A stretch of DNA of 26,225 nucleotides from a virus, in IMG/VR virus record IMGVR_UViG_3300044715_000451, positions 1 to 26,225 of that record; one strand, given 5' to 3'. The translations under genes and the position numbers were made by a program. The first letter of the stretch is position 1; each line of letters starts with the position of its first letter. Positions 13,106 through 18,621 of the stretch are shown here, in pieces. Below the pieces are notes generated by a model, which was not told where the DNA came from, did no database searches, and worked only from the letters and a program-made list of their open reading frames with translations.

Positions 13106-13917
13106 TAAAACAATCTGGACTAGTTAGATTGTTAACTGAAGAGCAGTGCGAAGATATTGTGTCTAAAATTGATTCATTAAATAAATATTGGACTGCTAGA
13201 CCAAGAAATGGTTTAAATATGTTTTATACCATGGGTGGAGCAGCTTATTTAGACACCTATAACGGCTCCAGACCAGATCAATATGTAAAGTCATATACAA
13301 AAATGAATCCAATACTCATGGAAAATTTTTCTGAATTATATGATCTATTATTAAAAAATTTAAATTCAATAGTTGGACCATGTGCATTAGCAGATGACTT
13401 AGCAATACCTGGGTTTCAAATATTTGGATTAAAAAAAGAGAACATGACATTGCCTATTCCTATACCTAATTTAGGTTACTCGACAGAACTTCATTCAGAT
13501 AAAGTCTCATACGACCACAAAGAATTTTGGTCAAAGTATAAAAATGTGGAAGAAGATTTATTAACAATAACAGTTGCAATTGATGTACACAACAATGGTT
13601 CTGGTTTAGCTGTCTGGGATAAAGAAATGAATATAGACTCAAACAGCGAATACGCAAACACTGTTAAACAGCAAGGAATGGAAGCATTAAATAAAATTAA
13701 AGAAGTTTCAGGATACCCATTTAACTCGGATAAAATTGCAGAGTTTGATATGGAATATCCTAAAATTGTAGAGTATTTTAAAGGCAGTATGTTTTATGTA
13801 ATTGGAGACCCTTGGCATCAAGTGACACCGCCAATTAATGCAACAACAAATGAGCGCAGGATTACTTTACAGGCACATGCTTTAAAGTGTGATGGAATAT
13901 GGAGACTACACTTTTGA
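13102..13917 (+). CDS. 2-oxoglutarate/Fe(II)-dependent dioxygenase-like protein
   Basis: A 271-residue protein with the double-stranded beta-helix signature: E-L-H131-x-D133, a distal H239 (D-P-W-H-Q-V), and R252/R253 (E-R-R-I-T-L-Q) as the 2-oxoglutarate anchor. The middle has L-L-T-I-T-V-A-I-D and G-S-G-L-A-V-W-D strands typical of prolyl-hydroxylase-like enzymes. Such enzymes hydroxylate proteins, small molecules or nucleic acid bases using O2 and 2-oxoglutarate. The substrate is unknown. It sits between recombination genes and the cobalamin genes, overlapping its neighbours by ATGA and TTGA. A TET/JBP-type DNA hydroxylase would look different, so protein or metabolite is the likelier target. 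Confidence 0.65.
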   Translation: MIKQSGLVRLLTEEQCEDIVSKIDSLNKYWTARPRNGLNMFYTMGGAAYLDTYNGSRPDQYVKSYTKMNPILMENFSELYDLLLKNLNSIVGPCALADDLAIPGFQIFGLKKENMTLPIPIPNLGYSTELHSDKVSYDHKEFWSKYKNVEEDLLTITVAIDVHNNGSGLAVWDKEMNIDSNSEYANTVKQQGMEALNKIKEVSGYPFNSDKIAEFDMEYPKIVEYFKGSMFYVIGDPWHQVTPPINATTNERRITLQAHALKCDGIWRLHF

Positions 13918-14018
13918 TTAAATTTTTTATAGGAGTTTTAATTGGATTTTTAATCGCATATCCAATAGGGTTATGGGCTGGATATTATACTGATTGGATA
14001 AATAGAGATGGAAAATAA
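13914..14018 (+). CDS. Single-pass membrane miniprotein (34 aa)
   Basis: It starts at TTG 13914 in a TTGA overlap with the dioxygenase stop and ends by overlapping the next gene. After M-I-K, residues 4-24 are a continuous hydrophobic helix with small residues (F-F-I-G-V-L-I-G-F-L-I-A), then a short polar tail. Precise overlaps on both sides support it as real. It could be a small subunit of a membrane complex with the DUF4430 protein, or a membrane-active lysis-related peptide. The sequence does not decide. Confidence 0.5.
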   Translation: MIKFFIGVLIGFLIAYPIGLWAGYYTDWINRDGK

Positions 14019-14355
14019 ATCTGATTCAAAAAACACATTAGAATTAATTAGTGATATTACTGAATTTAATGATTTACATGAGTTTATGAAGGATGAACAT
14101 TTAGATAAAGCTCTTGCAATTGTGGTAAAATTGTTAATGAACCCAGATGTGCCTTCAGCTAAAGCACCTCATTTAATTATGGAGCTACAGGCAATGTCTA
14201 CTAAATTTGCAGTTATGTCTTCTGTATACTCAACTATTATGAAAGATAAGGCTGGAACAGTTAATAATAATAAAAAGAATGTATATTATTCAGTAAAAGA
14301 ATCTATAGACAAACTTGTTGATGCACTTAAATATGTTGTTAGGTATAACTCATGA
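14008..14355 (+). CDS. Conserved helical phage protein
   Basis: A 115-residue, all-helical, cytoplasmic-looking protein with L-D-K-A-L-A-I-V-V-K-L-L near residues 32-43, a P-H-L-I-M-E-L-Q-A-M-S stretch, and a C-terminal helix ending L-V-D-A-L-K-Y-V-V-R. I have seen comparable helical proteins in other phages without a proven role. It is linked to its neighbours by overlaps of 11 and 4 bases. Confidence 0.5.
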   Translation: MENKSDSKNTLELISDITEFNDLHEFMKDEHLDKALAIVVKLLMNPDVPSAKAPHLIMELQAMSTKFAVMSSVYSTIMKDKAGTVNNNKKNVYYSVKESIDKLVDALKYVVRYNS

Positions 14356-14801
14356 TTCAAAAAAGAATTATGTTTTTGTTTATTTTTATTGGTTCAGCAA
14401 TAGGATTGTTTGTTTTAAATTCTAATCAACCAGAGTGCATTAACCTATATGTAGACTACGGAAATAATTCTACCGTAGAAAAGAAATGCGTCAGTGCCAG
14501 TGGTAAAGTTAATTCTTTAGATCTATTAAAAGCAAATGGATATAAGATAGAGGGGACAGCAAAGTATGGGAATGCTGTTGTCTGCAGAGTAAATAATTTT
14601 CCCAACAACAGTGTTGAAAAATGCCAAGACATGCCACCAGAAAATGCATATTGGGCCGTGTTAGTAAAAAAGAATCAGGCCTTGCCATTTCCAAGAAATG
14701 AATGGGGCTGGGCACAAAAGGGAATTAATGAAACTTTTGTCGAACCAGGAGACCACCTTGGCCTAGTATTTTCTACTAAAGGAGAAGTAAGATGGCCGTA
14801 G
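14352..14801 (+). CDS. Membrane-anchored DUF4430 (transcobalamin-like) protein
   Basis: A 149-residue protein with a signal anchor at residues 4-22 and an extracytoplasmic domain. The domain holds four Cys (C29, C46, C78, C91), enough for two disulfides. The layout S-L-D-L-L-K-A-N-G-Y, Y-G-N-A-V-V-C-R-V, C-x-D-M-P-P-E-N-A-Y-W-A-V-L, E-W-G-W-A-Q-K-G and F-V-E-P-G-D-H-L-G matches the DUF4430 domain, related to the C-terminal domain of transcobalamin and intrinsic factor and often encoded with corrinoid uptake genes in bacteria. It probably binds cobalamin or a related ligand outside the membrane. A cob(I)alamin adenosyltransferase two genes on supports this. Overlap with the previous gene is ATGA. 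Confidence 0.65.
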   Translation: MIQKRIMFLFIFIGSAIGLFVLNSNQPECINLYVDYGNNSTVEKKCVSASGKVNSLDLLKANGYKIEGTAKYGNAVVCRVNNFPNNSVEKCQDMPPENAYWAVLVKKNQALPFPRNEWGWAQKGINETFVEPGDHLGLVFSTKGEVRWP

Positions 14802-14953
14802 AATTATTAGAAGAAGTAGAATTATTAGAAGAAAAGGTTAAGAATAAATCTTTTCCAATATTAGTTATTGCTCAGCTTTTTATAACAGTTGTTGCTTTAT
14901 CTGTAGTTAATGAAATTGCAGTAGATGTTTGGCGTTCTTTAAGGGGTCATTAA
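14792..14953 (+). CDS. Single-pass membrane miniprotein (53 aa)
   Basis: An acidic N-terminal heptad (E-L-L-E-E-V-E-L-L-E-E-K), a transmembrane helix at about residues 21-40 (F-P-I-L-V-I-A-Q-L-F-I-T-V-V-A-L), then a short tail. It overlaps the DUF4430 gene by 10 bases and the adenosyltransferase by one base (TAATG), so it is embedded in the cobalamin pair. The ATG follows GGAGAAG. It may be a membrane partner that couples the outside binding protein to the inside enzyme, which is inference. Confidence 0.55.
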   Translation: MAVELLEEVELLEEKVKNKSFPILVIAQLFITVVALSVVNEIAVDVWRSLRGH

Positions 14954-15450
14954 TGGTAATACTAAGTAAAATTTATACTAAAACTGGTGACGATGGGCAA
15001 ACCTCTAACGCTAATAACGAAAGGGTGTCTAAGACTAGCCCCGTAATGGAAGCAATAGGTGCTGTAGATGAGGCTAACTCTGCTATTGGAATGGCAACAG
15101 ATGAATATAATGATGTTATTGAAAGAGTTCAGAGCGACTTATTTGATCTTGGTGCAGAGCTTGCGGGGGCCCCAACAATAACAATATCTGAAAACAGAGT
15201 GACATATTTAGAAAATGTAATTGATGACTACAATGAATATCTAGAGCCTCTAAGATCTTTTGTTTTACCAACAGGTCCACTGCACAATGCAAGGACTGTT
15301 GTAAGAAGGGCAGAGCGTGAGGTTTGGAAGATAGAAAATGTAAATCCAAACATTGCTAAGTATTTAAATCGTCTATCAGACTTATTGTTTGTTATGGCTA
15401 GATATCACAATAAAGGAAAAGAAAAAATGTGGGTGCCAAACAATGAGTAG
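14953..15450 (+). CDS. pduO: PduO-type cob(I)alamin adenosyltransferase
   Basis: A 165-residue enzyme that transfers adenosyl from ATP to cob(I)alamin to make adenosylcobalamin. Motifs: T9-K-T-G-D-D-G-Q-T (ATP site), E33-A-I-G-A-V-D-E-A-N-S, Q60-S-D-L-F-D-L-G-A-E-L, F103-V-L-P-T-G, L110-H-N-A-R-T-V-V-R-R-A-E-R and Y137-L-N-R-L-S-D-L-L-F-V. A frame open upstream from 14929 is ignored because ATG 14953 sits in TAATG and gives the family N-terminus. It is about 20-25 residues shorter than typical enzymes. Part of this is a gap of about five residues between L-P-x-G and L-H-x-A-R, close to the active site. It is in one operon with the DUF4430 protein. Confidence 0.9.
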   Translation: MVILSKIYTKTGDDGQTSNANNERVSKTSPVMEAIGAVDEANSAIGMATDEYNDVIERVQSDLFDLGAELAGAPTITISENRVTYLENVIDDYNEYLEPLRSFVLPTGPLHNARTVVRRAEREVWKIENVNPNIAKYLNRLSDLLFVMARYHNKGKEKMWVPNNE

Positions 15451-17200: not shown

Positions 17201-17962
17201 ATGAGTATAGAAAAAAAGATCTGGCAGACTTACGAAACAAGTTTTGATGAATTGCCAATTTACGCTAAAGAAAGCGTAGGGACATGGACTCATCAAAATC
17301 CAGGATGGGCTTATGGCTACATGAGTGGACAAGACAGGGAAAACTTCTTTAAGGAACACTTCGACTCAAAAACATATGAGACCTATTTAAACCTGCCTTT
17401 AGGAGTAATGAAAGCTGGCTTATGGAGATTTGCTATTCTTTATATTCACGGTGGGATATATACAGATATGGACACACACTGCAAGACTCCAGTAGATACT
17501 TGGTTAAGCCCTGAATACGATATGATTTTAGATATCGAAAGAGATACCCCATGGCTAGCAACTCAAACAATTGCCGCTAAAGCTGGGCATCCGCTACTAA
17601 AAGCAGCCATAGACCTTTGTGTTGAAAGATGTTCTGAAGGAATTATTCAACATAATCATATGGTTCATTACTATACTGATGTTCAAATGTTTACAGATGC
17701 ACTATATAAAAAATTAGGCGTTGAGCCTTATCAAAAACATATCAATGAGTGGGCCCCAGAACTTATGGAAATGGATTTTCTAAAAGAAAATAAAGTAAAA
17801 ATTCTTTGTGGAGAAGAAGCCAGAAGACTATTAGATAAAGATGTAGTCCATCTTTATTGGGGAGATGACAGAGAAGCAGGATGGATTGCTTGGAAAAAAG
17901 ATCCTCTTGTAAATGAATCTTATCCTAATGGATTTAATCCTCATGAATGGGAAAAAGAATGA
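17201..17962 (+). CDS. GT32-like glycosyltransferase
   Basis: A 253-residue enzyme. K-I-W-Q-T-Y at the start, then L-W-R-F-A-I-L-Y-I-H-G-G-I-Y and the metal-binding D89-M-D91, as in OCH1/capsular GT32 enzymes with a GT-A fold. It would transfer a sugar from a nucleotide donor. The next gene encodes a sugar-nucleotide-forming enzyme, so the two probably form a glycosylation pair. The target could be a virion protein, DNA or a host glycan. The ATG follows AGGAGA. Confidence 0.8.
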   Translation: MSIEKKIWQTYETSFDELPIYAKESVGTWTHQNPGWAYGYMSGQDRENFFKEHFDSKTYETYLNLPLGVMKAGLWRFAILYIHGGIYTDMDTHCKTPVDTWLSPEYDMILDIERDTPWLATQTIAAKAGHPLLKAAIDLCVERCSEGIIQHNHMVHYYTDVQMFTDALYKKLGVEPYQKHINEWAPELMEMDFLKENKVKILCGEEARRLLDKDVVHLYWGDDREAGWIAWKKDPLVNESYPNGFNPHEWEKE

Positions 17963-18621
17963 GTGTTATAGGAGTATTGCCAGCATCTGGAAAAGCTTCT
18001 AGAATTGGTGGCATCCCTAAATTTTGTTTACCTATATCAGATGAAAGATCTCTTTTACAATGGCACGTAGAGCAAATGCTTGAAGTGTGTGATGAGGTTA
18101 GGGTATCTACAAGAGCTGAGTGGGTTCCAATTATTCAAAATATGGACATGAATATTAAACTAATTGTTCGTGAGCCTTCAACAATGTCAGATGCAGTAAA
18201 GTTTATGGTGGGCGAGTATAACGATACAGTGCTTATTGGAATGCCAGATACATATATATTAAACGCACCTGTAAATATATACAAACCTTTATTTAAAGAT
18301 AATAACGCAGACCTTGTTCTGGGAATTTGGGAATGCGGAGAAGTATTAAAAGGACGTGTCGGTCAAGTTTTAGTATCCCAAGATAAAGTAATTGGTTCAG
18401 AAGACAAGGTAGATAATTGTGATTACCCAGATATGTGGGGCACTATGCTATTTCGAAAGAATATGATAAGATACATAGATACAACATTAGATCATCCAGG
18501 AAAACAATTAAAGGAATGGATATCTCAAGGATTTAATATTAGGGCGGAAAGACCAGGTGGACAGTATATGGATATTGGAACATTAAGAGGACTTAAACAA
18601 TTATACAAGGAGATGGAATGA
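17959..18621 (+). CDS. Sugar nucleotidyltransferase
   Basis: A 220-residue NTP-transferase. The N-terminal signature is V-L-P-A-S-G-K-A-S-R-I followed by P-K-F-C-L-P-I (the usual G-x-G-T-R is changed to S-G-K-A-S-R). Metal-binding D97 is in L-I-G-M-P-D-T-Y. G-Q-Y-M-D-I-G-T near the end matches the W-x-D-x-G-T/Y-x-D-I-G-T motif. It makes an NDP-sugar for the glycosyltransferase upstream. ATG 17959 overlaps the previous stop (ATGA). ATG 17947 is an alternative that adds four residues. Confidence 0.8.
   Translation: MSVIGVLPASGKASRIGGIPKFCLPISDERSLLQWHVEQMLEVCDEVRVSTRAEWVPIIQNMDMNIKLIVREPSTMSDAVKFMVGEYNDTVLIGMPDTYILNAPVNIYKPLFKDNNADLVLGIWECGEVLKGRVGQVLVSQDKVIGSEDKVDNCDYPDMWGTMLFRKNMIRYIDTTLDHPGKQLKEWISQGFNIRAERPGGQYMDIGTLRGLKQLYKEME

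Follow-up and report, generated by a model that had tools for sequence, protein, structure and literature searches.

A candidate phage-borne corrinoid supply module grouping a transcobalamin-like surface protein, a membrane miniprotein and a PduO-type adenosyltransferase

Introduction

Could a bacteriophage encode the capture of vitamin B12, its activation and its use together? The question is raised by the 26,225-base virus record IMGVR_UViG_3300044715_000451 of IMG/VR, which is probably a fragment and was analysed at its full length (the window), and in which a gene for a membrane-anchored protein, here called D, is followed by genes for a single-pass miniprotein and a PduO-type adenosyltransferase. 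The original prediction read these genes as a module that captures corrinoid outside the membrane and activates it inside, for instance to feed a B12-dependent class II ribonucleotide reductase (RNR). We consider it likely that they form part of a phage-borne corrinoid supply module comprising surface capture, activation and use by a phage class II RNR. The adenosyltransferase family, the fold of D, the linkage of the genes and the occurrence of class II RNR in related phages rest on sequence and model comparison; cobalamin binding by D, its docking on a host transporter, activity of the PduO protein and a flux of cofactor to the RNR are what we infer beyond it.

Phage class II RNRs, PduO-type adenosyltransferases and transcobalamin-like surface proteins are each already known. 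Viruses with B12-dependent RNR have been reported to be ubiquitous across the pelagic ocean; on their B12 supply, the same report goes no further than saying that they may possibly enhance or regulate the uptake or production of the vitamin (PMC10547690). According to PMC6370689, neither Prochlorococcus nor Synechococcus nor the phages of either are known to have B12 transporters, and PMC11183165 lists cobA, which it terms a cob(I)alamin adenosyltransferase, with the viral genes of a wastewater virome. We recognised no description of the combination of D, miniprotein and PduO or RNR among the open-licence papers that our searches brought up. A phage that codes for capture, activation and use of B12 together would offer a testable mechanism for the B12 supply of B12-dependent viruses in hosts unable to make the vitamin; D would be a virus-borne transcobalamin-like protein, and D with the miniprotein would add a protein pair.

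Results

Conservation of the gene group

The three genes of the proposed module, and two upstream neighbours judged to lie outside it, are arranged in the window as follows.

14352–14801, plus strand: D, a transcobalamin-beta-domain-like protein of 149 residues, assigned by fold, profile comparison and invariant cysteines and MPPxxAYW motif
14792–14953, plus strand: single-pass miniprotein of 53 residues, a near-constant partner of D with a conserved C-terminal end
14953–15450, plus strand: PduO-type ATP:cob(I)alamin adenosyltransferase of 165 residues, assigned by PF01923, TIGR00636 and PDB 2g2d
14008–14355, plus strand: gene matching phrog_9818 (E 4.9e-43), the neighbour of PduO in the window's phage lineage, not counted in the module
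13914–14018, plus strand: upstream single-pass miniprotein, outside the module

The gene positions and the overlapping start and stop codons of the original prediction were borne out. An ATGA overlap joins the phrog_9818 gene to D, the D and miniprotein genes also overlap, and a TAATG overlap joins the miniprotein to PduO, a TTG start at 14929 not being needed; the group of three has the phrog_9818 gene on one side and a gene for a Cas4-like exonuclease on the other. Such overlaps are frequent throughout the compact genome of the window, so that alone they say little and were dropped as stand-alone evidence. The evidence for a module is the conserved grouping of these genes elsewhere.

That grouping was assessed in 80 of 120 relatives for D contigs and in 80 of 222 for PduO contigs, besides an earlier relative set (80 of 245); viral contigs are often near-identical, and the counts are not independent. 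Of 77 assessable D contigs, 76 had the miniprotein as the gene immediately following D. In 64 of 76, PduO lay downstream of D and ended no more than 1.3 kb away, and in 33 of 74 a class II RNR was the immediate upstream neighbour of D. RNR or PduO flanked D in 76 of 77 contigs; in the sole exception, L308, PduO is 6 kb distant and there is a small, diverged open reading frame (ORF). Approached from PduO, D was upstream in 63 of 74 assessable contigs. The genes occurred as RNR-D-miniprotein-PduO, as RNR-D-miniprotein, or as D-miniprotein-PduO with RNR elsewhere or not found, which is the arrangement of the window's lineage, and two RNR lineages as well as diverged PduO versions take part. The group is kept together across many viral contigs, in favour of the original prediction. 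The pairs tested showed purifying selection on D, miniprotein and PduO, with dN/dS of 0.09–0.35 for D (9 pairs), 0.14–0.4 for the miniprotein (6 pairs) and 0.02–0.07 for PduO (7 pairs).

The adenosyltransferase

The 14953 product is by family a clear ATP:cob(I)alamin adenosyltransferase, in agreement with the original prediction. It matched PF01923 (E 1.9e-50, 171.7 bits, cut-off 24) and TIGR00636 (E 3.4e-45, 153.8 bits, cut-off 108.45) as well as PDB 2g2d (E 1.1e-31). The stretches YTKTGDDG, RRAER and NRLSD, whose residues we take to belong to the ATP and corrinoid sites, are invariant in 13 PduO sequences (alignment A2) and align with 2g2d, where the first reads YTRTGDDG. The phage protein thus has the full-length family match and the conserved stretches in common with known PduO-type enzymes, from which it differs in being phage-borne and in its length of 165 residues versus 193 in 2g2d. 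Among INPHARED phages, PduO was found in 15 records, all below 60% identity and 13 of them unannotated.

Family and fold of D

D has an N-terminal membrane segment, read by eye, and an ectodomain from about residue 26. Its four cysteines, singled out in the original prediction, and an MPPxxAYW motif are invariant in 39 phage and cellular sequences (alignment A5). Searches with single sequences and family models returned little. The D of the window matched no Pfam, PHROGs or NCBIfam family, four of its relatives (L031, L035, L047 and L062) gave nothing in Pfam at E ≤ 1, and the 39 members of A5 gave weak hits scattered over 12 Pfam families (best E 0.0057), PF14478 not among them. Phage D had no match at E ≤ 0.01 to the SCO2322 family (NF040672), D was not found in INPHARED phages at E ≤ 1, sequence profiles of D gave chance matches (E 0.35–0.98) or none in the PDB, and BFVD held no convincing viral structure match (best E 0.082, template modelling score 0.39).

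Comparison of profiles with profiles by hhalign related A5, which contains both phage and cellular D, to 23 DUF4430 domains with probabilities of 93.4–95.1% (E 2.5e-7 and 3.2e-8); L332 was omitted from the DUF4430 alignment (misread frame). Thirty column shuffles reached at most 1.8%, and the reversed and PduO controls 0.1%. Cellular D alone aligned with DUF4430 at 89%, and phage D with cellular D at 99.8%.

A first AlphaFold2 model of D, built from 14 close phage sequences, was poor (predicted local distance difference test, pLDDT, 56) and was not used; the ectodomain modelled from the 39 aligned sequences reached a pLDDT of 90.4, with strands 41–44 and 48–55 after a helix, where a ligand-contacting beta-hairpin would be looked for. 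When the Foldseek matches of this model in the PDB were rescored, the top 14 rows by Z were transcobalamin, intrinsic factor, haptocorrin and the bacterial structure 3u7z, presumably a DUF4430 protein, at Z 10.2–11.1 over 93–96 residues, the next row falling to 5.8. The best match was the transcobalamin beta domain of 2bb6 (Z 11.1, root-mean-square deviation 2.7, 94 aligned), and 5np4, the isolated human beta domain with cyanocobalamin, was among the 14. Foldseek itself ranked the same transcobalamin-type proteins first (E 0.0043–0.11). By profile comparison and by the fold of its model, D groups with DUF4430 and with the beta domain by which transcobalamin binds cobalamin. From the transcobalamin-type proteins it differs in its low identity (14–21%), in having a membrane segment and no N-terminal alpha/alpha toroid, and in being viral. 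The transcobalamin beta domain has been placed in the transcobalamin clade of the SLBB superfamily (PMC1796856); the words phage and virus are absent from the main text of that paper.

Cellular relatives of D

A pattern search of species genomes returned 17 relatives of D, all actinobacterial by title and from genera that we take to be actinobacteria; the 16 that were aligned carry the same four cysteines and MPPxxAYW as phage D. In the four clusters scanned, the cellular D genes stood beside components of energy-coupling factor (ECF) transporters: CbiQ near D in L151 and, fused to ATPase domains and just above the cut-off, in L146; ECF-type ATPases in L146 and L148; an S-component in L148, weak and under the cut-off; and SCO2321-type proteins in L148 and L157, both under the cut-off. 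L151 scored 31.4 bits against the cut-off of 85 for the SCO2322 family. The nearest cellular relative of phage D (37%) is that of Aurantimicrobium, L146, which has an ECF cluster. No SCO2321 match was found in this genome, by a model that also gives weak matches in its controls, and a stand-alone beta domain may therefore be enough there.

Cobalamin riboswitches were found near cellular D in 23 of 45 sampled loci (7/9, 7/18 and 9/18), comprising 9 of the 17 host loci (at most 16 kb each) and 36 of 61 genomes with matches, and in one of 18 hand-chosen control stretches of 8 kb each from 13 of the same genomes. By coordinates the riboswitch was upstream and on the same strand in 22 of the 23, the exception being L208. 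No riboswitch was found in the window. Two cellular genomes also held a DUF4430 match near a D-type gene, at about 6.3 kb in one (G212 contig 1, ~3652–3659 kb) and about 1.3 kb in the other (G081 contig 203, ~2.3–4.2 kb).

Class II ribonucleotide reductase and the host

The phage records scanned for RNR, class I RNR and WhiB were hand-chosen and mostly the larger ones. TIGR02505 detected class II RNR, which the original prediction had guessed at, in 27 of 38 of them (26 of 34 with D and one of four with PduO but not D) and in all 14 chosen records of at least 95 kb. The cut-off of 340.05 was passed in 10 of the 38. RNR of type B passes it (L143, 357.1 bits); type A, that of the window's near relatives, falls under it (L137, 308 bits, E 1.2e-91) and matches PDB 1l1l (E 2.4e-40). 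The small subunit of class I RNR was found in none of 22 chosen records. The known phage class II reductases, of the ribonucleoside triphosphate reductase (RTPR) type (PMC10547690, PMC4428469), have the TIGR02505 match in common with those described here, which differ in being grouped with genes predicted to serve B12 capture and activation. As a separate observation, two class II lineages of about 644 and 676 residues occur in one phage group (L136–L145), the shorter matching RNR_Alpha weakly.

The EcfT/CbiQ permease was detected in none of 15 phage records and in both host genomes, and the same 15 records gave no match to SCO2321, the toroid partner, by the model that also weakly matches its controls; D therefore probably works through the transporter of the host. 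WhiB, present in 15 of 32 phage records, points to actinobacteria, which these phages probably infect.

The miniprotein

Both miniproteins of the window have a single membrane pass, as read by eye. The one following D ends in [IV][DN][IVL]WR[SA]x[TRK]GH, and this W-R..G-H end was kept in 17 of 17 aligned miniproteins. Its codons vary while the residues stay, so the ending matters as protein. A by-product of a ribosome-binding site was considered as the origin of the GH ending and rejected, given this codon variation and its retention in L275, L304 and L309, where PduO does not directly follow. The miniprotein was found in none of 198 actinobacterial genomes, in a search that had no positive control.

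D and the miniprotein appear to come and go as a pair. Among 28 of 33 PduO loci lacking D (L124 and L129–L132 were omitted, their contigs beginning in or just before PduO), the miniprotein was seen only in L118, whose contig begins at it. In one such locus, L068, the phrog_9818 gene runs directly into PduO. In another, L128, an ORF of 250 residues (1365–2117) occupies the position between phrog_9818 and PduO where the window has D and the miniprotein, and this site may accept different cargo.

Discussion

We propose that D would be inserted in the membrane of the host and expose its transcobalamin-like beta-grasp domain on the outside, where it would bind corrinoid and most likely hand it to an ECF-type B12 transporter of the host, either replacing the D-like surface protein that the host itself has or acting alongside it. 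The miniprotein, which is produced along with D, may anchor or couple it. Inside the cell the phage PduO would adenosylate cob(I)alamin, and the resulting adenosylcobalamin would be used by the phage class II (RTPR-like) RNR to supply deoxynucleotides for phage DNA. The fold of D, the linkage and the RNR uphold the earlier reading of capture and activation; as an amendment to it, a phage permease and toroid partner were not found in the 15 records, so that a host transporter is probably needed. A more specific form, in which D and the miniprotein constitute a phage-specific membrane relay for corrinoid, the WR..GH end couples to the transporter or to PduO, and scarce B12 is re-routed to the phage RNR from a host unable to make it, is tentative and in our view rather improbable.

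The closest cellular parallels are the actinobacterial SCO2321/SCO2322-like surface proteins encoded with ECF genes, whose D-type domain shares the four cysteines and MPPxxAYW and whose clusters are often under cobalamin riboswitches. Phage D differs from them in standing alone (without CbiQ or SCO2321 match in the 15 records), in its added miniprotein and in its PduO and RNR neighbours. Cyanophage PstS is a phage-borne phosphate-binding protein; like D it would bind a nutrient at the surface and pass it to a transporter of the host, and it differs from D in fold, nutrient and transporter type.

Several results weigh against the proposed supply module. The PF14478 model matched neither D nor any relative scanned; the original prediction had assigned D to DUF4430 and named a failed match as the outcome that would speak against it, which in the narrow sense is what was obtained, and because of this the DUF4430 label rests on the profile-profile and fold comparisons. 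Phage D alone aligned with DUF4430 at only 45.7% (E 2e-4), and no Foldseek match of D in the PDB reached E ≤ 0.001, the best being 0.0043. RNR was not among the matches of a scan of ten window genes, the other genes of the window not having been scanned for it; in the near relatives G005, G006, G009 and G010 it lies elsewhere on the genome, and in some near-relative records it was not found, for example in G004 (85.9 kb, with D 99% identical). Eleven contigs carry RNR, D and miniprotein with PduO not near, and 11 of the 74 assessable PduO contigs are without D, two of these having RNR upstream and nine neither; D and the miniprotein are also missing in relatives whose PduO is up to 98.8% identical. 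On the cellular side, B12 transport by the D clusters is suggested by riboswitches and neighbouring genes, and no riboswitch was found at L150, at L146, the closest relative (none above threshold), or at 20 of the 36 loci of the larger sample.

Three other explanations compete with corrinoid supply. D and the miniprotein might block host B12 uptake or mask a surface protein, a form of superinfection exclusion in which PduO and RNR would merely be neighbours. D does resemble the surface component of what is probably a host uptake system, and B12 receptors such as BtuB are phage receptors in other bacteria; such a role would leave unexplained why D lies beside RNR or PduO in 76 of 77 contigs and in several arrangements, and we regard it as unlikely. 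Slightly less likely still, the module could serve B12 enzymes of the host during infection, such as methionine synthase, and not mainly the phage RNR. Several enzymes are fed by B12, and in Aurantimicrobium (L146) the D relative has a methionine synthase gene at a distance of about 3 kb. Against this reading, the cofactor of methionine synthase is methylcobalamin, a form that does not require PduO, all 14 chosen records of at least 95 kb have class II RNR, and in 33 of 74 contigs the RNR gene immediately precedes D. Least probable of the three is that D binds another ligand, a metal ion or other cofactor, as the title of 3u7z (putative metal-binding protein) and the sharing of the beta-grasp fold by many binders, such that fold alone shows no function, would allow, against which stand the cobalamin riboswitches at the cellular relatives and the linkage to PduO and class II RNR.

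Other features of the window

The upstream miniprotein at 13914–14018, which the original prediction had included in the module, was dropped as a member because a similar ORF, judged by eye, occurs in relatives without D, such as L109, L110 and L122; it is a separate feature of the window's phage lineage. Further downstream, at 17201–18621, a DXD glycosyltransferase (PF04488) adjoins a MobA-like nucleotidyltransferase (PF12804); the two may act as a pair in sugar modification.

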